Assembly (NCBI GenBank): GCA_018343915.1
Contig: JABRWF010000002.1
Span: forward strand, 1 to 64,000
Direction: 5' to 3'
Length of the DNA: 64,000 nucleotides
Origin: Agroathelia rolfsii
Lineage: Eukaryota; Basidiomycota; Agaricomycetes; Amylocorticiales; Amylocorticiaceae
The translations under genes and the position numbers were made by a program. The notes under the pieces are model-generated. The model saw only the letters and a list, made by a program, of their open reading frames with translations, was not told the origin of the DNA and did no database searches. This document shows positions 1 through 29,212 of this stretch, in pieces (position 1 is the first letter of the stretch; the number at the start of each line of letters is the position of its first letter).

Positions 1-68
1 ACTACCCTAACCCCCTAACCCCCTAACCCCCTAACCCCCTAACCCCCTAACCCCTAACCCTTAACTAA
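1..68. repeat. Chromosome-end telomeric repeat array
   Basis: The window opens with tandem C-rich repeats. Most units are the octamer CCCCCTAA (TTAGGGGG on the complementary strand), with shorter CCCTAA, CCCCTAA and CCCTTAA variants at the edges. The C-rich strand reads 5' to 3' inward, as it must at a left chromosome end. The array passes directly into the Penelope-like element, with TAACTAACCCC as the last degenerate telomeric bases. Confidence 0.93.
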
Positions 69-96
69 CCCCAACAAGTCCCCCTCCGTTCAGTCT

Positions 97-427
97 ATGA
101 TAGACAAAGCGGTAGCTCGCACATTGAAGGGCAAACTTGGTAAGCTTACGGAAAAGCAAAAGAAGGTAAGATCCTCCTTCTATAACCAAGATCTAATGAC
201 TTATAAAAATAATTCTTTAGAACAATGCCAAACGCGACGCCAAATTGGCGAAACAAGCTCGCAAGATCTTAAGCGTCGCCAAGGACTACACCGACAAGGG
301 CGGCAAACGTTACCTGCCCCCTCCTTCTCGCAAGCAGCCCAAGAATGTGCTGCAAGCCGCTCAGAAAGACAAGAACAAGAAGGCTGGTGGGTCCAACAAC
401 AAGGGCAAAGGCAAGGCTCGCAAGTAA
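97..427 (+). CDS. Small basic Lys/Ala-rich protein at the 5' end of the Penelope-like element (spliced)
   Basis: Exon 97-165, a 55-nt intron 166-220 (GTAAGA, branch-like CTAATGAC, TTTAG) and exon 221-427 give a 91-residue lysine-, alanine- and glycine-rich protein ending KGKGKARK and two adjacent TAA stops. In exon 2 this frame has a strong preference for C or G at third codon positions, whereas the frame that runs through from 97 into the RT is low-complexity there. It therefore looks like a real first ORF, possibly nucleic-acid binding, lying immediately upstream of the RT frame. Function is unknown. If the intron is retained, translation from the same ATG would instead stay open into the RT frame as far as 1014. 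Confidence 0.5.
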
Positions 428-430
428 TAA

Positions 431-1017
431 GAGGGGACGACATCGATTTTTCCGGGTATGTACCTGGTATCGCCTCAACCTTGCCTGATAAGATTACTGA
501 CATTTCTTATCCACGCGCGGTAGAATTAGTTATTTTACATACGCCTGTAGATTATTTGTACTTAAATAGTTACAAAAAATCTGTTCACACTTCTCCTGGC
601 GTGAATTTGCCCGATAACATAAGTTACTCATTAAGTGTTGGAATGCGATTTCTTCTACACCAACCACTAAAGAAAGAGTTATTACAAAATGCGTATGAAG
701 ACTTTACTCGCCGTTTAAGATGGAGAGTATTATTCTCTTTCTCAGGGAAAGATTCCCTCTATGATCCTGATTTTGAAGTCAAGAAAGAAACCAAATTTCC
801 ACCCTTCAAAATGCCGTGGTACCTGGAACAGGGTCTCCGTATGGGACAGCGCTTCATTAATGATACGATCGCTAAAATGCCAACGGAGTCGGATGAGTCG
901 AACTTTAAGTCGCTCACACCTCATCTCAAACCAATCCAAAAGTTCTTGAACGACCATAACTATGTAGTTACTGGCACTGATAAGAACCTAGGTATCGCCG
1001 TGTCAGAGCGTACCTAG
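431..1017 (+). pseudogene. N-terminal part of the PLE reverse-transcriptase polyprotein, ending in an in-frame TAG
   Basis: This frame is the same as that of the RT core, and it is open from 97 if the intron at 166-220 is retained. The portion from about 431 (GDDIDFSGYVPG) reads as normal protein and carries the N-terminal region that precedes RT in Penelope-like proteins (for example DKNLGIAVSERT near its end). It stops at a single TAG (1015-1017). The frame then continues without interruption (IIEKSLEILNN) into the RT core, so the stop is probably a nonsense mutation (from TGG or CAG) and not a true end. No convincing ATG lies just before 431. Confidence 0.6.
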
Positions 1018-1080
1018 ATCATAGAAAAATCTCTCGAGATATTAAATAATCCTTTAGATTATAAAGAGCTTAACCCAGTA

Positions 1081-2817
1081 ATGGCACAAGCTATTCTCGA
1101 CAACAAGGTTAAAAGTATGAAAGAACTTGCCAACCTTGCAGATACAGCCAATTTTGTCCAGATAGAAACTGTAACGGAGAAATTCTTTCTTTCTCAAATA
1201 CCTGAAGAAAAGGAAGGACGTTACAATCATAAGATCCCGAAGTTTTATGGTATCCCCAAAATCCATAAACAGCCGGTTAAATTCAGACCAATCATACCCT
1301 GTCACTCTTCGGTTATGAATCCGGCGGCTAAATTTGTATCTAAAAAACTTAAACCAATTATTAATTCGGCGCCAACTATTATACATGGAACCAAAGACTT
1401 GGCGATAAAATTAAGTAAACTATCTCTATTACCTCGCCACAAATTCTATATCGTCACTGGTGACGTAGTGGCCTTCTACCCTAATATACCATTAGATAAA
1501 TGTCTCACTATAGTGTACGACATGTATATGGATCACTATTGGAATATAAGGGATCATGATAGTCATAAACTAGAACAAAGATTGTTCAAACAAAGTTTAT
1601 ATGTAGGTAATACTAGACTAGTAACACAGTTTCAAGATAAAATCTACGAACAAAAACGTGGCCTTGCTATGGGAGTCGCTGACTCCCCAGATTTAGCCAA
1701 CCTCTATGGCTGGTTTTTTGAAAACAAGGTCAAAATTCTTGAATGTGCCCAAGTACCGTTCTATGGGCGCTACATCGACGACTGCTTAGCAATTGTGTAT
1801 GCTTCAAGTGAACAAGAAGCCATACAAGTTGTTAATGACAAAATAAAGTTCGATGGCTGTGAAATTATTTGGAATGCGTCAGAATCTTTTCAACACTTCC
1901 TGGACATGACACTGTACCGAGATCACAATGGACAGTTACAGCACATGCCCTTCAGAAAAGCGCAGTCCAACCACGAAAGAATTCCATTCATCTCGGCACA
2001 CCCCATGGATGTCAAAAGAGGAACATTCATTGGGGAAATGTCAAGGATGGCCGTGTTAAGTAGTACACAGTCACACTACCTGGATGCAATTAAAGACTTA
2101 GTTAATCTTTATATAGCACGCGGCTACCCTGAGGCTCTTGTTATGTCTTGGGCAAAGAAAAATTTACAAGAAAGATGGGAAAAACGGCTCACCGTTAATC
2201 ATCGTAAAGCCGAAGACGGCACTAACCTTCTTGTACTCAAGACAGAATTCAATCCTGTATGGAATTACTTTAATGCAAAAGAATTTACAGACACCATTCT
2301 TGGTTACTGGCGTGAATACTTATACAAAGTAGAACGTAATGAACTAGAACCCAAATTTGGGGACTATAGCTTCATTGGTGAGGAAGACCTCCTTAGGTGG
2401 TTTCAAATTGATCAGCGCTTCTGTTTATTGCCTTCTTCGGGAGACATAGACATGGAGACTGGTTGGTCTGAAAATCAGGGTATGCCTGATATTCGTCACT
2501 TCTTTAACCATACCACACGAACAATTGTGAGTCGCTCACGCACTCGCAATCTGTTTGACATCACAAGTCTTTGGAAAAAAGTGGTGTTAGAAAACCTGGA
2601 TGAGCAAGTAACAGGGGAAATTGACACTCTTGTTAATCAAGAGAGGCGACACGGAACAGCGCCACCCCTAGACGATTCGTTCACGTCTTCATACCTACCT
2701 ATGGCAGACCCAGCCCCCGGTGAGGGCTCTGTTAGTTCTGATTCGGATAGTTCTGACATAGGTTTTAGAAGAAGACGCTCTCCAGGGCCTACACAATGGA
2801 GAATTGCTAGATGGTAA
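1081..2817 (+). CDS. Penelope-like reverse transcriptase core
   Basis: This is 578 residues from the internal ATG after the in-frame TAG. It holds the Penelope hallmark YGIPKIHK (about residue 57), RPIIPCHSS, motif A TGDVVAFYPNIP (two residues before the P-N-I-P turn is the first catalytic Asp region), motif B RGLAMGVADSPDLANLY, motif C YGRYIDDCLAIV with the catalytic Asp pair, and FLDMTLY after it. The C-terminal part past about residue 430 is acidic and Ser-rich, with no GIY-YIG signature, so this is the endonuclease-lacking class. The catalytic residues look intact, but the in-frame TAG just upstream would separate this part from its N terminus. Confidence 0.85.
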   Translation: MAQAILDNKVKSMKELANLADTANFVQIETVTEKFFLSQIPEEKEGRYNHKIPKFYGIPKIHKQPVKFRPIIPCHSSVMNPAAKFVSKKLKPIINSAPTIIHGTKDLAIKLSKLSLLPRHKFYIVTGDVVAFYPNIPLDKCLTIVYDMYMDHYWNIRDHDSHKLEQRLFKQSLYVGNTRLVTQFQDKIYEQKRGLAMGVADSPDLANLYGWFFENKVKILECAQVPFYGRYIDDCLAIVYASSEQEAIQVVNDKIKFDGCEIIWNASESFQHFLDMTLYRDHNGQLQHMPFRKAQSNHERIPFISAHPMDVKRGTFIGEMSRMAVLSSTQSHYLDAIKDLVNLYIARGYPEALVMSWAKKNLQERWEKRLTVNHRKAEDGTNLLVLKTEFNPVWNYFNAKEFTDTILGYWREYLYKVERNELEPKFGDYSFIGEEDLLRWFQIDQRFCLLPSSGDIDMETGWSENQGMPDIRHFFNHTTRTIVSRSRTRNLFDITSLWKKVVLENLDEQVTGEIDTLVNQERRHGTAPPLDDSFTSSYLPMADPAPGEGSVSSDSDSSDIGFRRRRSPGPTQWRIARW

Positions 2818-3270
2818 GTCTCTGGCTTACAATCGATTGGATTTGTACCTGCAACGACATTAAAGTGCTCAATGCGGCTAATGGTTCAGATCAAAGTAGG
2901 ACTAGTATGACCAAGGTAATGTGCTTGTATACGACGTTAGAGAATTTAATGGAACCGGGATGGATTCCGGTATAGCCTCGGCTGTGACACGCCAAACCTC
3001 TCTGCGACGGCAGCGCTAATCCCCGTGTAGTAGTAAGGCTATAATCCAACGCTTTTACTTTATGGTCCCATTTCGTAGGAATTCTTTTGCAACACACATG
3101 TATCTTGTAGGTACTTCGGAAATTCTGTTTCATGCACAGACGGTATTAACCAAGGTAGTTAGACAAGCTAACAGACACCCTAACTCCCTAACCCCGTAAG
3201 TACATATATAACACATTTATATAATACTACCTAGCCACTAAGACTAACTTATCAATAGCTAACCCCTAAC
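2818..3270 (+). other. 3' region of the Penelope-like element ending in telomere-like tracts
   Basis: No coding frame of quality was seen. The stretch ends with degenerate telomeric repeats (about 3177-3196 and 3260-3281) and an AT-rich spacer. This is where the element would have been joined to the pre-existing chromosome end. I found no ribozyme core here; the hammerheads are in the repeats that follow. Confidence 0.5.
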
Positions 3271-3273
3271 CCC

Positions 3274-3712
3274 TAACTAACCTAACACGTAGGTCACGTG
3301 ATCAGTAGGGGTTAGGTCACGTGGATTAGTCACGTGCCTGTGAAGCACGTGACTTCGTCACGTGGTCTGGTTATAGATCACGTGTTTTTCATGTGACCTT
3401 GCTGGAAGGTTAGTAAGCACGTACTGCTTATTACTAATTGTTAGCGATTTTTAGTCATTCCGATGCGGACTTGATCTTATCGATCGGCGTTGGTAAGCGT
3501 CCCGCTCATGGATTACCAATCGCCTTCGGCGATTGGGCTAGGTAAGCAAGATAACATTAGTCACCCTTAGGCTGATTACGTGTGTAGACTCGACTAAGCA
3601 GGTCCTGATGAGCCCTTTAAAGGGCGAAACGGGTATGCTGTGGACTAACCATCCACCCGTTGACCCAGTCGAGCCCCCCCTGCTCCTCTCACGAGTTTTA
3701 TTTGCCATCCTC
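3274..3712 (+). repeat. Telomeric tandem monomer 1 (hammerhead-bearing, ~449-bp period)
   Basis: This is the first of three near-identical monomers with offsets of 449 and 443 bp. In order it contains a telomere-like CTAACTAACC start, six CACGTG hexamers within about 110 bp (3295-3385), a GC-rich hairpin (3516-3536), a hammerhead ribozyme (3589-3673) and a pyrimidine-rich tail ending TTTGCCATCCTCC. It is followed directly by another CCCCTAAC. There is no coding capacity. The architecture resembles retrozymes or the ribozyme-bearing repeats of telomeric PLE assemblies. Confidence 0.85.
3589..3673 (+). ncRNA. Hammerhead ribozyme 1
   Basis: The core CTGATGA is at 3605-3611 and GAAA at 3626-3629. 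Stem II is GCCCTTTAAAGGGC. Stem III pairs ACGGG with CCCGT and is extended by GTGGA/TCCAC. Stem I pairs GGTC (3601-3604) with GACC (3662-3665) and, beyond an internal loop, CTCGACT with AGTCGAG. The cleavage triplet GTT ends at 3661, so scission is predicted between 3661 and 3662. The two strands enter at stem I (type I topology). All universally conserved core nucleotides are present. Confidence 0.9.
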
Positions 3713-3722
3713 CCCCTAACCC

Positions 3723-4160
3723 TAACTAACCTAACACGTAGGTCACGTGATCAGTAGGGGTTAGGTCACGTGGATTAGTCACGTGCCTGTGAAGCACGTG
3801 ACTCCGTCACGTGGTCTGGTTATAGATCACGTGTTTTTCATGTGACCTTGCTGTAAGGTTAGTAAGCACGTATTGCTTATTACTAAGTGTTAGCGATTTT
3901 TAGTCACTCCGATGCGGACTTGATCTTATCGATCGGCGTTGGTAAGCGTCCCGCTTATGGATTACCGATCGCCTTCGGTGATCGGGCTAGGTAAGCAAGA
4001 TAACATTAGTCACCCCTAGGCTGATTATGTGTGTAGACTCGACTAAGCAGGTCCTGATGAGCCCTTTAAAAGGGCGAAACGGGTATGCTGTGGACTAACC
4101 ATCCACCCGTTGACCCAGTCGAGCCCCCCTGCTCCTCTCACGAGTTTTATTTGCCATCCT
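3723..4160 (+). repeat. Telomeric tandem monomer 2 (hammerhead-bearing)
   Basis: It has the same order of parts as monomer 1. It is the most divergent of the three, with an extra A in the stem II loop and paired changes in the GC-rich hairpin. The hammerhead core is intact. The monomer is flanked by CCCCCTAAC telomeric units on both sides. Confidence 0.85.
4038..4123 (+). ncRNA. Hammerhead ribozyme 2
   Basis: It has the same fold as copy 1 with one extra A in the stem II loop, outside the core. CTGATGA lies at 4054-4060, GAAA at 4076-4079, and GTT ends at 4111. Cleavage here and in copy 1 would release a 450-nt monomer RNA from a tandem transcript. Confidence 0.9.
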
Positions 4161-4165
4161 CCCCC

Positions 4166-4602
4166 TAACTAACCTAACACGTAGGTCACGTGATCAGTAG
4201 GGGTTAGGTCACGTGGATTAGTCACGTGCCTGTGAAGCACGTGACTTCGTCACGTGGTCTGGTTATAGATCACGTGTTTTTCATGTGACCTTGCTGGAAG
4301 GTTAGTAAGCACGTACTGCTTATTACTAATTGTTAGCGATTTTTAGTCATTCCGATGCGGACTTGATCTTATCGATCGGCGTTGGTAAGCGTCCCGCTCA
4401 TGGATTACCAATCGCCTTCGGCGATTGGGCTAGGTAAGCAAGATAACATTAGTCACCCTTAGGCTGATTACGTGTGTAGACTCGACTAAGCAGGTCCTGA
4501 TGAGCCCTTTAAAGGGCAAAACGGGTATGCTGTGGACTAACCATCCACCCGTTGACCCAGTCGAGCCCCCCCTGCTCCTCTCACGAGTTTTATTTGCCAT
4601 CC
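4166..4602 (+). repeat. Telomeric tandem monomer 3 (hammerhead core mutated)
   Basis: It is nearly identical to monomer 1, including the hairpin, and ends in CCACCCCCTAACCCCC at 4601-4616. The hammerhead GAAA box reads AAAA, with G to A at 4518. The AT-rich LTR sequence begins immediately after the terminal telomeric tract. Confidence 0.85.
4481..4565 (+). ncRNA. Hammerhead ribozyme 3, probably inactive
   Basis: All stems and the CTGATGA box are kept, but the GAAA box is AAAA: the base after stem II, at 4518, is A instead of G. That position is G12, the general base of hammerhead catalysis, so cleavage should be abolished or very slow. Confidence 0.85.
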
Positions 4603-4615
4603 ACCCCCTAACCCC

Positions 4616-4759
4616 CTTGCTTAGTCATCAGAGTGCTTATATAATGTCTGCTTATATAATATACATATTATATACCAAAAAATCGAGAAAAATCAGGAAA
4701 AATTCGGAAAAATAATAAGAAATTCTAAATAAATTTATAGTACATAGATCAACTCATAA
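4616..4759 (-). repeat. Truncated inverted 5' fragment of family-1 LTR
   Basis: The sequence reads as the reverse complement of the first ~140 bp of the family-1 LTRs (the poly-pyrimidine ATTTTTCTGATTTTTC segment and the CTTATATAAT segment). It is cut off on the left by the telomeric monomer array. The next ~90 bp to 4852 show nothing recognisable. Confidence 0.6.
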
Positions 4760-4852
4760 TAGCAGTAATCACCTGATTGGCCCTTACGTATTCTAAGCCA
4801 CATGTTACAGGAGTAATCTTAGGGCTGTGTCTTTTCTCTTTACCATTATATA

Positions 4853-5753
4853 TGTTACAAGACGCTCATTGTACTATAAATTTATTTAGAATTTCTTGTT
4901 ATTTTTCTGAATTTTTCCTGATTTTTCTCTATTTTTTGATATATAACTTGCATATTATATAAACATTACATAATCACCCTAATGACTAAGCAAGTCATGT
5001 GACAGCTAATCATATGATATATTATATATACACAAGTCTAGAATATAAGTCCAGACTAGGATATCATAATAGACTTATTATAATGCAATATTACACCATA
5101 CTTAGCACCCCTGCACACAGACCAGGTAGAATTAGTATATAACCCTGTAGTACCCCTATCTAAAGACCTAGATTTGTTCTCTTTGTCATTAGGTAAGCAC
5201 AAATAGTGCCATGTACTAAGTAGTAACTAATATAATAAAAACTTTGTCTTCAGAGCCTATCTCTCTCCCCTCCCCTTTCCAAAATCCTCTCTACTTCATG
5301 CTAGAAGGTTATAAGTATGCTCAGTGCTACTTGTAGACAAGGTGTGCTTAGTGCTACCTCCATGAGCTTGTATAAGACAGGTCCAGCCCATCAGTAGTGA
5401 CCATTTGCAATAGCTGTAATACAAAACCATATTGTGCTTAGTACACATACCCAACAAAGCTTTATGCCTAGTTGGCTAGGGTTAAGATACCTCAACCCCT
5501 ATCTACATACACAAGAAAACTTATGTCTTGACTATAGACCTTGCTTGAAAGTCTTATAGACTTAGAGTAAAGCCTGGTGATAGAAAAGCTTGAGTTTGAG
5601 TGAGAGTAGAGACAAGGCATAGAGAAGTGTACACCCCTGTATCCCAAGTCCTAGGAAGAGTAAAAAAGGCCTTACTGCCTACCTCGTACCTTCAAGGGGT
5701 TTCTATGGACTTTGGTTGAGTTTTGGTGGCAAGAGTTAGGTATACTCTTAACA
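4853..5753 (+). repeat. Family-1 solo LTR, copy A
   Basis: It begins TGTTACAAG and ends ACTCTTAACA (901 bp). It shares its whole length with copies B, C and H: a pyrimidine-rich start, paired TCATGTGAC-type motifs, a TATATAA promoter-like box, a CTCTCTCCCCTCCCC tract and a GGTTGAGTTTTGGTG segment before the end. The flanking five bases (ATATA and ATACA) match at four of five positions, an imperfect target duplication. It has no coding capacity. Confidence 0.7.
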
Positions 5754-19659: not shown

Positions 19660-21243
19660 TTGGCTGCAGATGTCAAAAATATTCCCAGAATATATAAACA
19701 AGCAATGAATTCACCTGACCATGAAAAATGGGAAGAAGCTATGAAAAAAGAAATGGATTCATTAAAATCTAGGGATGTTTACAATCTGGTTAATAGACCC
19801 AAAAACAAGACAATCCTCAAAGGAAAATGGGTTCTAAATATCAAATCAGATGGACGTTACAAAGCTAGATATGTTGCTAGAGGAGATCTACAAACAAATG
19901 ATACATTTGATGACACTTGGTCACCAGTTGCAAGATATGAGGCATTCAGAGTTTTACTTGCAATAGCCATATATAGTGATTGGGAAATTGACCAAATGGA
20001 TGTTACCACTGCATACCTTTATGGAAAACTTGACCATGAAATTTACATAGAACAACCCACAGGTTTTTCAGTCAAAGGAAAAGAAGATCAAGTCTGCAAG
20101 CTTAAAAAATCCCTCTATGGATTAAAACAAGCAGGTAGACAGTGGAATTTTGAAATACATTCAACACTTGAAAAAATGAATTTCAAAAGAACACACTCAG
20201 ATGCAGGTATCTACATAAACCATCAACAAGTGGGAGACCCAAATGATAAAATCATTCTCATTTTATATGTTGATGATTTATTAATCATAGAAAAAGTGAA
20301 AAAGCAAATTCAAGACTTCAAGAAAAAACTCATGGAAAAATATGAAATGAAAGATCTTGGAGAAGCTAAATCATTCCTAGGTATCAATATCAATAGAAAC
20401 AGGAAAAAGAAATTACTGTCTATTGATCAAAAAGATTACTGTGAAGGTATCCTAAAGAAATTCCAAAAGGAAAAATCAAAAGGATATTCTACACCAATGT
20501 CAGCAAGCATCCAACTCAAATCTAATCCTAACCAAGTGACAGAGGCCAATAAAACCCACTACAAAAGTATGATTGGTTCACTCACATTCTTAACCATCAT
20601 AACTAGGCCAGACATCACTTTTGCTGTAAACAAATGTGCTAAGTACAGTGAAAATCCTGGAAAAGAGCATTTCACTGCAGTAAATCATATATTCCAATAC
20701 CTATCCAAAACCCCGGACAAAGCCATTGTCTATCAAGGACAACACCCAAAAGAATTAACCACATATTCAGATGCAGATTGGGCAATGGACTTAGATGACC
20801 GGAAATCTACAACTGGATATATTACCATGATATGCAAAGGTGCAACTTCCTGGTCAACCAGAAGACAACACACCACTGCATTATCTAGTGTAGAAGCTGA
20901 ATATATGGCTCTCACAGAAACAGCAAAACAAGTTAAATGGTTACAGAAACTACTAAAAGACATAGGTGAAGATATATCTAACCCAACAACTATTTTTACA
21001 GATAATCAAGGAGCTATTAGCCTAGCCAATAACCCCAAACATGGTGGAAGAGGTACTAAACACATTGAAGTTAGGCATCACTTTATCAGAGAAACAGTCT
21101 CTGATGGTACTGCTAGGACTGAGTATATTAATACTAACCAACAGCTAGCAGATGTTTTAACCAAACCTTTGGCAGAAACAAAGCACAGCTATTTTTCAAA
21201 TTTAGCTGGACTAACAAATGATCTTAGATGGTTAAAGCAATAA
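19660..21243 (+). pseudogene. Copia reverse transcriptase and RNase H
   Basis: These 527 codons are open from a TTG at 19660; the frame itself extends back to the TAA at 19309. RT motifs include KWVLNIKSDGRYKARYVARG, QMDVTTAYLYG, KSLYGLKQAGRQW and LYVDDLLII. RNase H shows TYSDADWAMDLDDRKS, SSVEAEYMAL, TDNQGAI and KHIEVRHHFI. No stop lies within. The native end is TAA 21241-21243, twenty bases before the 3' LTR. Catalytic residues look intact although the full polyprotein is broken upstream. Confidence 0.9.
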
Positions 21244-24311: not shown

Positions 24312-27300
24312 CTAGGGGGATTTCCTCCGGAACATCCCAAGTTCCCATGCTCCTCCTATTTTCTCTGTAGGTCCGTTTGTGAAATTCTCAATTGGCCGGA
24401 AGGGTAACTCCGCAAAGGCTGCAGTGGTCAGGCGTTTAGGCGCTTTGGGGTTCTTCCGGTGAAATTCCTTCAATAGTCGTGGGGCATTGGCGACATCTTT
24501 TTCTGACTCCCACGAGTCTTCTCCGGGGTAACCTTTCCATTCCACAAGATATTCAAGCTTCTTAGTCCGCGGGCTTAAGCGGCTATCTTTAATTCTTAGG
24601 ACCTCGTGTTCTTCTTCTCCCTCGATTTCTACTGGTGGTGGAGGTGGTGGCGCAGGTCTAGATTCCGTCTGGACATGTGGCTTAATGAGCGAGACGTGAA
24701 ATACGTCGTGAATTGTCCATCTTTTTGGAATAGCTAGACGTAGGGCGCGGTTCCCGACCTTCTCCGTGACCTTATAGGGACCAATCCATTCTGCTGACAA
24801 TTTCTTGGATGGTTGTGCCAGGCGGATGTTTTTGGTGTTTAGCCAAACTTTATCTCCGACCTCGTATTTCGGAATTTCCACCGCGTGTTTGTCAAAAAAG
24901 AATTTCATTCGGTCCGCCGTATGGTCCAGTGCTGCTTTAGCGTCTTCTTGTAATTCCTTAACCTTTTCCAGCCAGTTCTGGGCTCCTTCCGTGTGTAGGG
25001 TTCCTGCCGTTGTTAAATCCATTTTGGGAGAGAAGCCGTAATTCATCTCGAAGGGAGAAGACTTGGTTGCGGAATGTTGTCGGTTATTGAGAGCGAATTC
25101 TGCGAGGGGTAGTAGTCCAGACCAATTGTCTTGCCGGTGTGACACGTAATTCCGGAGATAGACTTCAATCTCTTGGTTCATACGCTCGGTTTGTCCATCT
25201 GACTGGGGGTGATATGCCGTGGATAGGGATGTTTTGATGTCTAGCCGCTTATGGATTTCCCTCATGACTTTTCCTGCAAACTGGGGTCCTCTGTCCGAGG
25301 TCCAGGTTTTAGGGAGTCCGTGGAGTCGGAAAACATGGGTAAGGTATAAGTCCGCCATTTCAGAGGCCGTGATTGCTTCTACGCAGGGAATAAGGTGCAA
25401 CATCTTTGTTAATTTGTCCACTACCACCAGAATAGAATCATATCCTTGTGATTCCGGTAGCTTGACTATCATGTCTGAAGTTACGTGTTCCCAAGGGAGG
25501 TCTGGCGTTGATAGCGGGGCTAATGGTCCAGTGGGCATTGCTCTGGATTTCTTGTTTGCCAGACAGCTTGGGCATGAGTCGACATAGTTGTTGATTGCTT
25601 TAGTCATTCCGGGCCACCAGTAGTTCCTTGATGTTAGTTCCAGAGTCTTGTGTCTTCCTGGGTGACCGGCTGCAGGGACGTCGTGGTTTAAGCGGATGAT
25701 GTCATTGCGTAAGGAGACGTCTCGTGGTACGTAAACTTTCCCTTGGTGCAGTATCAGACCGTTTTCCTCATTCCATTCTTCAAGCCCCTTTTGGAGCTTA
25801 ACCGGGCCGAGCTCCTTGACTACTGCTAGCGCCTTGGCTATTTCTGCATCCCTTCCCTTGCTTCGGATTCGATCCAGGATTCCTTTTTCCCCTATGACTT
25901 CCACATGTCCTCTTCTGGCGGCGTTGATTCGGAATAGTTTTGGGTCTAGAACTATCTGGTCCAAATTGTCTTGTTCGTCACTACGTTGAAAGTCCGGACG
26001 CCGGGAAAGGGGGTCTGCGCGGCCATTTTCGGAACCTCGGAGATATGAAATAGTGAATCGGAACTCAGATAGGAACAGGGACCATCTTGCTTGGCACCGG
26101 GTAAGGTTTCGGGCCGTTTTCCAGTATTCCAGATTTTTATGGTCCGTCCGAATATCAAAGGGGTGGGGAAGCCCTATTAGGTAGTGTCGCCAGGAGTCAA
26201 GTGCGCGGATGATCGCCAACATTTCCTTGTCCCAGATGTCGTAATTTCTTTCGGCATCATTCATGGCTTGAGATAGGAATGCAATTGGTCGCCAGGAGCT
26301 ATCTTTTTGCTTTTGGAGAAGGACTGCTCCTGTGGCAAAATTGGAAGCGTCGGTTTCAATGCGAGTTTCTCCGTGTTGATTGTAGGCTCCCAGAACCGGT
26401 GCCGAGGTGAAGGCCTTCTTTAGTGCATCAAAAGCCCCTTGTTCTTCCGCTTCCCACTTCCAATCCGTTTTTCCAGTGAGCCGGTCTAAGGGTTTGCAGA
26501 TTTGGGCGAAGTTTTTGATGAACCTCCGGTAGTAATTGGCAAGTCCGCGGAACCTTTGCACGTCGGAAACCTTTTGTGGGGTTGGCCAGTCCACTACTGC
26601 TTTGACTTTTTCTGGGGTCATACGAATAGAGCCAAACGATACGAGGGCGCCCAAAATATCTACTTCTGGAACATCGTATTCAAATTTTTCCAGGTTGGCA
26701 AATAGGTCATTAGTCTTGAGTACTGCTAGAGTTTCTTTGACATGTGACCGTAGCTCTGGTTCGGACTGTGCTCCAATAATGATATCGTCTATGTAGTGTA
26801 CTAGCCACCCTTTCTGATTGAACTCATAGAAAAGGTCATCCATCATGGTTTGCATTGTGGCAGGTGCATTACATAAACCGAACGTCATGACTGTAGGTTC
26901 AAAAAGACCTTTGTTTGTAATGAAAGCGGCTTTGTGCTCGTCGCCTTCTCGGATGCGGATATTGTTGAAACCCCATCGAAGGTCTATTTTGGCAAATGTT
27001 TTGAACCGGGTCATTTTATCTTGGAGTTCAGAGATCAATGGCAAAGGGTAGGCGTTTTCCACCGTTTTGGCGTTGAGTTTCCGATAGTCCTGGACGGGCC
27101 GAAGAGAACCGTTCTTCTTCGGTACAAAAAACATGGGGGCGGCGATAGGGCTTTCTGATTTCCGAAGGTAGCCTTTCTCCAGGTTTTCCTTGAGGTAGTC
27201 AACAAGGGCCTCTTCTTCTTTAACCGAAAGAGGATAGGCTTTACTTCTTCGTAACTGTGCATTGTCTTTGAGCACAATCTTGTGGTCCCAGGGTTTTCGT

Positions 27301-27725
27301 AGGGGCATTCGTTGGGACGCTTCTTTGGAAAAGACGGAAGAAAACTCTGAAGCCCAATCGGGTAAGAGGCTCGATGAGATTTGTAGGGTTTTTCCGGGTT
27401 GTATTTTTCCGGCGGACCAATCTATGATAGGGTTTTTCAATCTTAACCAATCAATGCCTAAGATTACGTTTTCCGGTCCTATGTCGGTGACCAGGAAGGG
27501 GAGTTTCTTCTTTATTCCGGCAATTGAAGTTTCCAAAAAGGCAATTTCTTCTATTGCTCCTTGCGCATTTGCGGAATTGTCTATATTGTACAAAGGGATA
27601 CTGCGTGGTAATTTTTTTGTATTTATTTTATTTTCTTTGATAAATCGGGAGTGAATAAAAGAGGACGAAGCGCCTGAGTCGATCATAGAAACAGTAACTA
27701 AAGAGGAAAAATGTCCATGGAACAT
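24312..27725 (-). CDS. Gypsy Pol: protease, reverse transcriptase, RNase H, integrase, chromodomain
   Basis: This frame has 1137 residues from the first ATG; the frame is open back to 27857, where a -1 shift would fuse it to Gag. In order: protease MIDSGASSSF, RT with SPIAAPMFFVPKKNGSLRP, FRTFAKIDLRWGFNNI-like and YIDDIIIG, RNase H ETDASNFATGAVL, integrase zinc finger (H-H, CPSC), TSDRGPQFAGK and QSDGQTERMNQE for DDE, then a chromodomain (YLVEWKGYPGEDSWESEKDV) near residues 1040-1090. The chromodomain places it among chromoviruses, which target heterochromatin. No frame damage is seen. Confidence 0.96.
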   Translation of the reverse strand: MFHGHFSSLVTVSMIDSGASSSFIHSRFIKENKINTKKLPRSIPLYNIDNSANAQGAIEEIAFLETSIAGIKKKLPFLVTDIGPENVILGIDWLRLKNPIIDWSAGKIQPGKTLQISSSLLPDWASEFSSVFSKEASQRMPLRKPWDHKIVLKDNAQLRRSKAYPLSVKEEEALVDYLKENLEKGYLRKSESPIAAPMFFVPKKNGSLRPVQDYRKLNAKTVENAYPLPLISELQDKMTRFKTFAKIDLRWGFNNIRIREGDEHKAAFITNKGLFEPTVMTFGLCNAPATMQTMMDDLFYEFNQKGWLVHYIDDIIIGAQSEPELRSHVKETLAVLKTNDLFANLEKFEYDVPEVDILGALVSFGSIRMTPEKVKAVVDWPTPQKVSDVQRFRGLANYYRRFIKNFAQICKPLDRLTGKTDWKWEAEEQGAFDALKKAFTSAPVLGAYNQHGETRIETDASNFATGAVLLQKQKDSSWRPIAFLSQAMNDAERNYDIWDKEMLAIIRALDSWRHYLIGLPHPFDIRTDHKNLEYWKTARNLTRCQARWSLFLSEFRFTISYLRGSENGRADPLSRRPDFQRSDEQDNLDQIVLDPKLFRINAARRGHVEVIGEKGILDRIRSKGRDAEIAKALAVVKELGPVKLQKGLEEWNEENGLILHQGKVYVPRDVSLRNDIIRLNHDVPAAGHPGRHKTLELTSRNYWWPGMTKAINNYVDSCPSCLANKKSRAMPTGPLAPLSTPDLPWEHVTSDMIVKLPESQGYDSILVVVDKLTKMLHLIPCVEAITASEMADLYLTHVFRLHGLPKTWTSDRGPQFAGKVMREIHKRLDIKTSLSTAYHPQSDGQTERMNQEIEVYLRNYVSHRQDNWSGLLPLAEFALNNRQHSATKSSPFEMNYGFSPKMDLTTAGTLHTEGAQNWLEKVKELQEDAKAALDHTADRMKFFFDKHAVEIPKYEVGDKVWLNTKNIRLAQPSKKLSAEWIGPYKVTEKVGNRALRLAIPKRWTIHDVFHVSLIKPHVQTESRPAPPPPPPVEIEGEEEHEVLRIKDSRLSPRTKKLEYLVEWKGYPGEDSWESEKDVANAPRLLKEFHRKNPKAPKRLTTAAFAELPFRPIENFTNGPTEKIGGAWELGMFRRKSP

Positions 27726-27813
27726 GATTGGTATATGCAGGTGCTGTCCATGCGCACCAGAAATAGAAACGGAATTACAGGAGAGAAGAGAAGAAAAACG
27801 ATTACAAAGATAT

Positions 27814-27857
27814 GGGTCGGCCGAAATGGCCCTTTCCGTCGACCCTTCTAAAAACCC
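27814..27857 (-). promoter_or_regulatory. Programmed -1 ribosomal frameshift signal between gag and pol
   Basis: On the minus strand the heptamer G_GGT_TTT (27857-27851) precedes the gag stop TAG (27850-27848) directly. Re-reading as GGG TTT enters the pol frame exactly: 132 bases, no stop, to the pol ATG. After a 5-nt spacer, GGGTCG (27845-27840) pairs with CGACCC (27819-27814), with a smaller GGCC/GGC pairing inside the loop. This is the canonical slippery site, spacer and stem arrangement. Confidence 0.8.
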
Positions 27858-29212
27858 GCTTTGTCTTTGAACGCTGCGAGTGCCATCCCTTGTTGCTCCA
27901 CTATGGCTTGGAGATCGGCCATTGTCAGGGCCGAGGCTTCTTCATTGGGTGTGACATGGGGAATGCCTTGCTGTTCTTGAGAAGGCGCAGGAGAGGTGGA
28001 TGTAGTGGTCGCCTGGACCCGTGGCTGATTTCCCCGGTATCTAGATACACGAGGGTTAATGCATGTAGAGGCGAAATGCCCCCATTGTTGACAATTATAG
28101 CACTGAACCGTGCTAAGATCCCTTTTAGGCCTGGATAGGCCGGCACCGTCTGCCGAAGGTTTTGTACTGCCCCCTGTTCCTTGAGCAGCGTTAATTACGA
28201 TAGGGTTGCTCATGCTTCCCTGCGTGTTCTGCTGTTGTTGTTGGAAACGGGGGCGTGGTTTCCAACCGTCGGTCCAAATGCCCGCATCTCGCAGGCCTTC
28301 CTCTGCATCTACGGCAGCTTCCATGAGGCTTTCAAGGGTCTCTTTCCTTTCTTTTGGATATCCGGCAATAACACCCCTGATTTTGGGTGATAACGCGTCC
28401 CAGTACCGGACACGTAAGTCTTCTTCGGAAAGTTTGGTCTCTGCGGCGAGAGCAGAGAAGGCCGCCGTAAAGTCTGCGACGGACGTTGTTCCTTGTTTGA
28501 GATCTCGTAGCTTTTGGAGGGCAAGTCTCCCAAAGTCACGAGCTCCGTACAATGCTTTAAACTTATCGTACAGATTTTTCTCAAATTCGAAGCCCTTAAT
28601 TTTCATGGCGGCCTCGAACTTCCTTGACCAGGCTTTTGGTGGCCCATCTAAGAGGCTAACGAAGAAGCGTCCCTTCAGCTCTTCTGTGTTGTAAATCCGC
28701 GGATTCATGCGGAGATGGTTGTCAAACCCAAAGATGAAGGACTGATACTTGGTCCAATCGCCTGTAAATTTTTCTGGGGCGTGACCAATTTCCTTCGGCG
28801 TGCTTGTGGATGCAGCGGCAGCTGTTTGTGGAGTTCGTTCGAAGACTCCGGTCATTTGCGCCTGTGTTTCTTGTACAAGGCGGAGCGTTTCCTCCATGCG
28901 TGCTTGGTTGGCCTGGAGGGCTGCAAGGATGTTAATGAGTTCCTGTGAAGCCATCTCTTCTTCTGGTTCGGATTGGGCGGGAGAGGGGATTGGTGATGGA
29001 ACGAGGGATGCGGGTCTGGACGGGAGAAGGTCTTCTACTTCTTCCTCGTCGTCTTCTTCGTTTTCTTCTTCTTCGTCAGAAGCTTCTTCGCTTTCTGATT
29101 CGTCCTCGGATGATGAGGGGTCTTCCTCGAAGAACGGTAGTTGTTCTAGGAGGGAAAAGGCGGTGTTTTGTTCTTCTGCGGGTTTATATCTAACGCCGCT
29201 GCGCGTGCTCAT
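27848..29212 (-). CDS. Gypsy Gag (capsid-nucleocapsid)
   Basis: The protein has 454 residues. It begins with an acidic Ser/Glu-rich N terminus (residues 20-90) and a Gln-rich helical segment, followed by a retrotransposon gag domain (FTGDWTKYQSFIFGFDNHL to YWDALSPKIRGVIAGYPKE, residues 150-290). A CCHC zinc knuckle CYNCQQWGHFASTC follows near residue 375. The start MSTRSGVRYKP is the first ATG and lies about 470 bp inside the 5' LTR. It ends at TAG on the frameshift site. Confidence 0.93.
   Translation of the reverse strand: MSTRSGVRYKPAEEQNTAFSLLEQLPFFEEDPSSSEDESESEEASDEEEENEEDDEEEVEDLLPSRPASLVPSPIPSPAQSEPEEEMASQELINILAALQANQARMEETLRLVQETQAQMTGVFERTPQTAAAASTSTPKEIGHAPEKFTGDWTKYQSFIFGFDNHLRMNPRIYNTEELKGRFFVSLLDGPPKAWSRKFEAAMKIKGFEFEKNLYDKFKALYGARDFGRLALQKLRDLKQGTTSVADFTAAFSALAAETKLSEEDLRVRYWDALSPKIRGVIAGYPKERKETLESLMEAAVDAEEGLRDAGIWTDGWKPRPRFQQQQQNTQGSMSNPIVINAAQGTGGSTKPSADGAGLSRPKRDLSTVQCYNCQQWGHFASTCINPRVSRYRGNQPRVQATTTSTSPAPSQEQQGIPHVTPNEEASALTMADLQAIVEQQGMALAAFKDKAGF

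Follow-up and report, generated by a model that had tools for sequence, protein, structure and literature searches.

Two families of short elements, A (about 447 bp) and B (about 410 bp), are present at chromosome ends of the fungus Agroathelia rolfsii, and carry a hammerhead ribozyme (HHR) towards the 3′ end. The genome sequence shows directly where the elements lie and which way they point, that their 3′ ends are intact and some are truncated on the 5′ side, that their stacks are mixed, and that HHRs are present. The explanation we prefer, and think probable, is that A and B are short non-autonomous retroelements found on chromosome ends only, the RNA of which is serially reverse-transcribed onto those ends. 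Judged by alignment, B is a diverged sister family of A.

The window, which is the whole 64,000-nucleotide stretch analysed, is the left end of contig C2 (C2L) in an assembly of 37.67 Mb and eight contigs, and includes three tandem copies of A (Table 1). Tandem Repeats Finder reports these as one array (positions 3263-4614, period 443-449, 3.0 copies, 95% matches), and a C-rich TAA joint closes each of the three copies. A preliminary description of this DNA proposed three tandem, non-coding monomers of about 445 bp with telomeric joints and one type I HHR each, complete in copies 1 and 2, and this picture stands: the copies are about 447 bp long, the core is full in copies 1 and 2, no sizeable gene was found in the array (the longest open reading frame touching it is 71 aa and runs out of the array), and the predicted cuts agree with the RNA 5′ ends that it expected at 3662 and 4112.

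Table 1. Features at the left end of contig C2 (positions in the window; HHR, hammerhead ribozyme; PLE, Penelope-like element)
Feature	Position	Strand
Telomere repeats of CCCCCTAA type at the tip of the contig (left end)	1-62	
PLE remnant, RT frame, 5′-truncated at telomere, one in-frame TAG	97-2817	+
3′ region of PLE remnant, found twice in genome	2818-3258	+
Short telomeric joint, PLE remnant / first A copy	3259-3273	
Family A copy 1, full length	3274-3720	+
Six CACGTG sites clustered in 5′ part of copy 1	3295-3384	
Matching CACGTG cluster, copy 2	3744-3833	
Matching CACGTG cluster, copy 3	4187-4276	
HHR of copy 1, type I, cut predicted at 3661/3662	3589-3673	+
Telomeric joint, copy 1 / copy 2	3712-3726	
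Family A copy 2, full length	3723-4169	+
HHR of copy 2, type I, cut predicted at 4111/4112	4038-4123	+
Telomeric joint, copy 2 / copy 3	4161-4173	
Family A copy 3, full length	4166-4612	+
HHR of copy 3, core G12 to A, predicted inactive	4481-4565	+
Joint on the inner side of the array, about 1.5 telomere units, followed by other subtelomeric DNA	4604-4616	

The CACGTG cluster in the 5′ part of A may act as a promoter. Of eight A copies in which the sites were counted, six have six, one has five and one seven; six B copies have two to four, and 18 of the 22 sites in the window fall within the three A copies. Inward of the array lies subtelomeric DNA whose first part recurs at other contig ends; directly after the array, at 4616-4994, there is an AT-rich inverted repeat with 129-bp arms (88% alike) that is MITE-like in its sequence, with similar stretches at several other ends. 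Elsewhere the window includes a Ty3-type element (24312-29212, - strand) with gag and a pol containing a chromodomain, and a Ty1/copia-type reverse transcriptase (RT; 19660-21243, + strand). The NuoG/Ndufs1 gene of the window has its nearest matches in mushrooms: among the 120 listed of 7998, a metagenome protein ranks first (96%) and the first with a species name is from Leucogyrophana mollusca (89%), which by itself would point to an Agaricomycete host, perhaps one of the Boletales.

Of the sixteen contig ends looked at, one is unreadable; telomere repeats are present at the start of 13 and absent there from the other two. We counted 14 A and 9 B copies in the assembly, all 23 of them at most 4.7 kb from a contig end and together occupying 8 of the 13 telomere-reaching ends (C1R, C2L, C2R, C3L, C4L, C5R, C6L and C6R), so the telomere association first seen at C2L is not limited to one assembly end; neither family was found in the first 10 kb of C1L, C4R, C7L, C7R or C8R. 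A whole-genome search (E≤0.001) gave at least 14 matches to A, representing 13 copies of which one is split by an insertion, and at least 10 to B, representing nine copies with one split; all of these are at contig ends, and none elsewhere in the genome was among the matches listed. The fourteenth A copy is a tail of about 17 nt at C3L identified by eye. At C2R, an A copy is split about 291-1069 from the tip by some 780 bp that begin TGTCACAAC, end TGTGACA and have GCTTA on both sides; with these features the insert resembles a solo LTR that has nested within the ribozyme element. A B copy at C1R likewise contains an insert at about 572-1578 from the tip, here of other DNA about 1 kb long.

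All A and B matches are in + orientation at left ends and - orientation at right ends. The 3′ end (HHR, about 38 nt, usually CCCCCTAACC) is kept in 23 of 23 copies, and seven of the 23 are short at the 5′ side, beginning at about 27, 149, 228, 373 and about 431 in A and at 211 and 305 in B; intact 3′ ends and 5′ truncation are signs of the copying through RNA that the preliminary description had supposed. Full-length A copies begin at a fixed point, TAACTAACCTAACA, and none begins inside the Penelope-like element (PLE) or its 3′ region, and B has its own fixed 5′ end with no PLE attached. Between elements the joints comprise roughly 0.5 to 3 telomere units; at each of the eight ends about 0.5 to 2 units separate the innermost element from other DNA, and 2 to 9 units are present in the first 90 nt of the 13 assembled tips. 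The short joints fit additions at ends with little telomere left, the RNA itself supplying about 1.5 units, and short telomeres in general would produce the same joint picture.

The two families are related along the body, with an alignment score of 83 against a mean of 33.7 and a maximum of 57.5 in 200 shuffles. When all columns are counted, 60 of 81 are identical in the HHR and 210 of 451 in the rest, with the fewest gaps in the HHR; over ungapped columns (60/68 and 210/244) the two parts are about equally alike. Variability within families is not significantly lower in the HHR, either in A (7 of 85 columns, versus 43 of 363 in the rest, p=0.44) or in B (7 of 70 versus 56 of 340, p=0.20).

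Hammerheads are recognized by a conserved core (CUGANGA..GAAA), an NUH cut site and three stems, with stem I open in type I, as it is in the HHRs of the window. The A ribozyme reads CUCGACU-AAGCA-GGUC-CUGAUGA-GCCC(UUUAAA)GGGC-GAA-stem III-U/GACC-C-AGUCGAG (the slash marking the predicted cut), and B has the same core, but with GACU-GGUC and a 2-bp stem II. Stem III follows one plan in other letters, the lower part being ACGG/CCGU in A and AUGG/CCAU in B and the upper part GUGGA/UCCAC in A and GGGUGA/UCACCC in B, and the differences are paired changes, for example C-G in A to U-A in B. In the written-out folds of one A and one B copy stem III has 9-10 pairs and all pairs are standard; the minimum-energy fold differs from the HHR fold in both A (-30.8 versus -25.2 kcal/mol) and B (-20.2 versus -18.9 kcal/mol).

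An HHR was found in every A or B copy long enough to contain one, and the core is full in nine of the 12 A ribozymes and in all nine of B. In three A HHRs (C2L_3, C6L_2 and C6L_3) G12 is changed to A, at a CpG; copy 3 of the window reads CAAAA where copies 1 and 2 read CGAAA, so that within this array the full core is present only in copies 1 and 2. The HHR of one B copy (C3L_2) is without the 5′ strand of stem I, and this copy, cut at stem I, was excluded from the HHR alignment, which contains 20 of the 21 HHRs. At C3L 484-587, a truncated B copy begins at or beside CTGATGAG, the first bases of the HHR core.

At Rfam gathering scores the window yields a single tRNA and no HHR, and detection of the ribozymes is therefore based on pattern, core and pairing. 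A strict pattern, CTGATGAGN{4,24}CGAAAN{8,38}TTGAC, chosen after inspection of A and B, has 18 matches genome-wide, every one in an A or B copy at a contig end, and none when reversed; a looser core expression applied to the 16 ends found 23 places, 18 in A or B and five elsewhere. The independent Rfam model Hammerhead_3 (RF00008), in a genome search at E≤1 that scored 68 of 7204 first-look candidates, found nine places, all nine of them A-family HHRs, with scores of 19-28 bits (best 28) against a gathering score of 48.5, and at E≤1 it also matches, below the cut-off, in 3 of 14 control genomes. Hammerhead_1 (RF00163) matched no A or B HHR in the genome; its sole match there (C3:5276375-5276430, 20.9 bits, E 0.32, cut-off 34) is far from a contig end, and 1 of 14 control genomes matches. 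Model R1, run against 16 sources, gave 21 matches, all in A or B, 20 of them being its own training rows.

Stacks of these elements are mixed, reading A, A, short B, short A, B at C6L and A, B, short A at C2R. Because A and B alternate, the arrays look built by separate additions, and orders such as A-A-B-A-B and A-B-A cannot derive from a single one-family multimer. Pairs of A copies at the same end are 96.43% identical (9 pairs) and those at different ends 96.05% (67 pairs), a same-end mean reached in 725 of 5000 label shuffles. For B the corresponding values are 96.67% (5 pairs) and 93.71% (37 pairs), with 130 of 5000 shuffles, and two B subgroups follow ends. These counts leave out the C5R_3 remnant and the two-piece pairs of one interrupted copy, and the C3L tail is in no alignment.

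Recombination between ends is also at work. C2L and C6R have in common the truncated PLE remnant, its 3′ region and A copies, and diverge more with increasing distance from the tip, showing 3 differences over about 2140 bp, 7 over about 617 bp and 13 over 456 bp (the first boundary being placed by eye); copy 1, beyond these blocks, is 96.2% identical between the two ends. At C3L, the A tail of about 17 nt that precedes B has the same A-B joint as C2R, and it follows from these two cases that the copies are not all independent. Such sharing, together with the 99.6% likeness of C2L_1 and C2L_3 and the loss of G12 in 3 of 12 A HHRs, speaks for A and B being subtelomeric satellites spread by break-induced replication or ectopic exchange, the HHRs being relics of an old retroelement. 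We nevertheless regard this as an unlikely account of the families, since it does not explain why the 3′ end is missing in none of the 23 copies and the 5′ end in seven, the innermost copies at eight ends meet different sequences through one short telomeric joint, and A copies at one end are no closer to each other than to those at other ends.

Next to the array is an RT frame (window 97-2817), which we take to be the remnant of a PLE. It has relatives in 336 proteins at E≤0.001 among 7994 scored, and the 25 aligned of the best 120 listed are 41-56% identical to it, one of them from Lentinula edodes; the precomputed domains PF26215 and PF28514 occur on many of the relatives listed. Pfam names no domain in the remnant, RVT_1 in 8 of the 26 aligned proteins and a GIY-YIG nuclease domain in none of the 26, and a PDB profile search with the PLE gave weak matches only (best E 0.036), so that the assignment as a PLE rests on RT motifs. 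No relative was found in IMG/VR with the PLE alignment or the HHR pattern. An intron or frame change in the 5′ part was considered and rejected, the straight frame matching one relative (E 2e-5) and the other frame none better than 0.044; a second open frame there, at about 221-426, would encode a very basic peptide. Besides the three A copies, the best match of R1, run unfiltered over window positions 1-5000 to cover the PLE flanks, has an E of 0.17.

The preliminary description supposed that this adjacent PLE had copied the array. The remnant at C2L contains an in-frame stop, and although the sole other copy found, at C6R, is open, both are without about 260 N-terminal residues; 17 of the 25 aligned relatives have 256-331 extra residues at this end, and a genome search at E≤0.001 gave no match to residues 1-332 of one relative (P0001). 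No intact autonomous partner for A and B was found in the genome. Because the adjacent PLE is broken and 5′-truncated, the identity of the copying enzyme is unproven, and an RT acting in trans may be encoded in an unread end, may have been lost, or may be telomerase. A telomerase appears to be encoded, to judge from a predicted RNA-binding domain at C8:2136652-2137168, of which two of three pieces are over the cut-off, one with a TAG inside that is perhaps an intron, and for which 0 of 14 control genomes match.

That domain, along with the failure to find an intact PLE in the genome, lends something to the proposal that telomerase, and not a PLE enzyme, copies A and B RNAs onto ends with CCCCCUAACC as the template entry. 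We think this distinctly unlikely, there being no known case in which telomerase copies a 400-nt stretch of foreign RNA like this. Against it also is the view, in the part of PMC6431247 available to us, that PLE-type enzymes at telomeres copy such RNA.

It is very doubtful that A represents a PLE 3′ UTR (pseudo-LTR), with solo A copies as 5′-truncated PLEs. Both PLE remnants are followed by A at the same joint, and an HHR with telomeric repeats 3′ of it is the Terminon layout in the available text of PMC6431247. However, the fixed start of A is never in the PLE or in its 3′ region (itself found only twice in the genome), B has its own 5′ end and no PLE, and the two remnants have one truncation point and so probably reflect a single event. 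Further, A lies only 3′ of the remnants and not on both sides as a pseudo-LTR would, their 5′ ends abutting telomere repeats, in remnants both of which are truncated.

In our preferred explanation of serial reverse transcription onto ends, a transcript of the array would read from the telomere inward, and its C-rich joint CCCCCUAACC, which directly follows the HHR fold, would anneal to the G-rich overhang where a telomere is short. This overhang would then be extended through tail, HHR and body by a telomerase-like RT (PLE-type in trans, or telomerase), and telomerase would subsequently add repeats capping the new end. Repeated rounds would give rise to stacks, and an early RT stop or end erosion to 5′-short copies. 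The weakest step concerns the HHR, whose probable role is to form a 3′-terminal structure presenting the tail complementary to the telomere, and to trim transcripts that have read through. Because cleavage would part tail from body, and because every copy reaching the cut site continues to the tail, the template must be uncut, religated or circular. For a purified lizard PLE, the portion of PMC11167929 available to us reports that HHR mutants left in vitro insertion unchanged, that reverse transcription began within the RNA and that HHR cutting required the protein. In view of these results, and of the copies that cross the cut site, we favour initiation within the array transcript, at its C-rich joint, the HHR acting both as fold and as trimmer.

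A retrozyme cycle, in which HHRs cut multimers, monomers are ligated to circles and several RT laps produce tandem arrays, resembles the origin first suggested for the C2L array but is equally very doubtful: a type I HHR in tandem units of about 400 bp fits the metazoan non-LTR retrozymes as presented in the available part of PMC7229834, a circle would join tail and body so that both ends abut a telomeric joint, as observed, and same-end B pairs are the closer ones (though B subgroups follow ends), yet neighbouring A copies, except C2L_1 and C2L_3, are not near-identical, and mixed A/B stacks require separate events. Multimer copying as the source of the A arrays is thus not favoured, neighbours being no closer than distant copies.

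Among the closest known systems are the Terminons (Athena) of rotifers, endonuclease-deficient telomeric PLEs which, in the accessible text of PMC6431247, have a 3′ HHR followed by reverse-complement telomere repeats, are 5′-truncated by telomere repeats and form head-to-tail or mixed stacks, all as in A and B. Terminons are up to 40 kb and encode an RT, whereas A and B are about 0.4 kb, without RT, and fungal; and the HHRs of PLEs and Terminons are described in the consulted part of PMC7761336 as minimal, without helix III or loop-loop contacts, in contrast to the long stem III of A and B. By its sequence, the anatomy of A and B matches the 3′ end of telomeric PLEs (Terminons) shrunk to about 0.4 kb, and we do not class either family as a PLE, there being no PLE RT predicted in the A unit of about 447 bp. 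The HeT-A and TART elements of Drosophila form serial, oriented, 5′-truncated additions to ends, encode proteins and replace telomerase. A and B are similar in their oriented, 5′-truncated end additions, but differ in that the fungus has both telomere repeats and a telomerase domain, and in that their units contain ribozymes. The Coprina-type telomeric PLEs of mushrooms offer a further comparison: PLEs are said to be telomere-linked in Agaricus (PMC7473861) and the RT remnant in the window has a mushroom relative, although A and B are without RT and the remnant has no HHR match. Metazoan non-LTR retrozymes are likewise short units in tandem, each with a single type I HHR and lacking a large gene, and PLEs have been proposed as their mobilising machinery (in the available text of PMC7229834). 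Unlike these, A and B are tied to telomeres, and the A arrays are not of near-identical units.

The preliminary description knew of no fungal example of such a layout, which is correct only in part. HHRs in fungal PLEs were reportedly described by Cervera and De la Pena in 2014. PLEs are linked to telomeres in Agaricus bisporus, according to the part of PMC7473861 available. Among the matches listed in the openly licensed literature, none dealt with short, HHR-bearing non-autonomous elements on the telomeres of fungi. What appears to be new here is short non-autonomous HHR units on fungal telomeres; the Terminon 3′ layout, retrozyme-type units and the HHRs of fungal PLEs were already known.

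One extension of the preferred explanation, which we put forward as speculative and rather unlikely, is a 'telomere retrozyme', in which ribozyme-processed, possibly circular RNAs of about 0.4 kb would serve as mobile templates to rebuild ends worn to about one repeat unit. A telomerase-like RT would copy them in trans, which would give a fungus a reserve alongside telomerase. What the HHR does at the 3′ end of PLEs on telomeres is called a mystery in the consulted part of PMC7761336, and in telomeric PLEs it sits in units that are difficult to handle. Two natural families of about 0.4 kb that keep the ribozyme, the telomeric tail and the CACGTG cluster would be a minimal system in which to ask if addition to telomeres depends on ribozyme cleavage, and A and B bear on the choice of RNA by telomerase-like enzymes.
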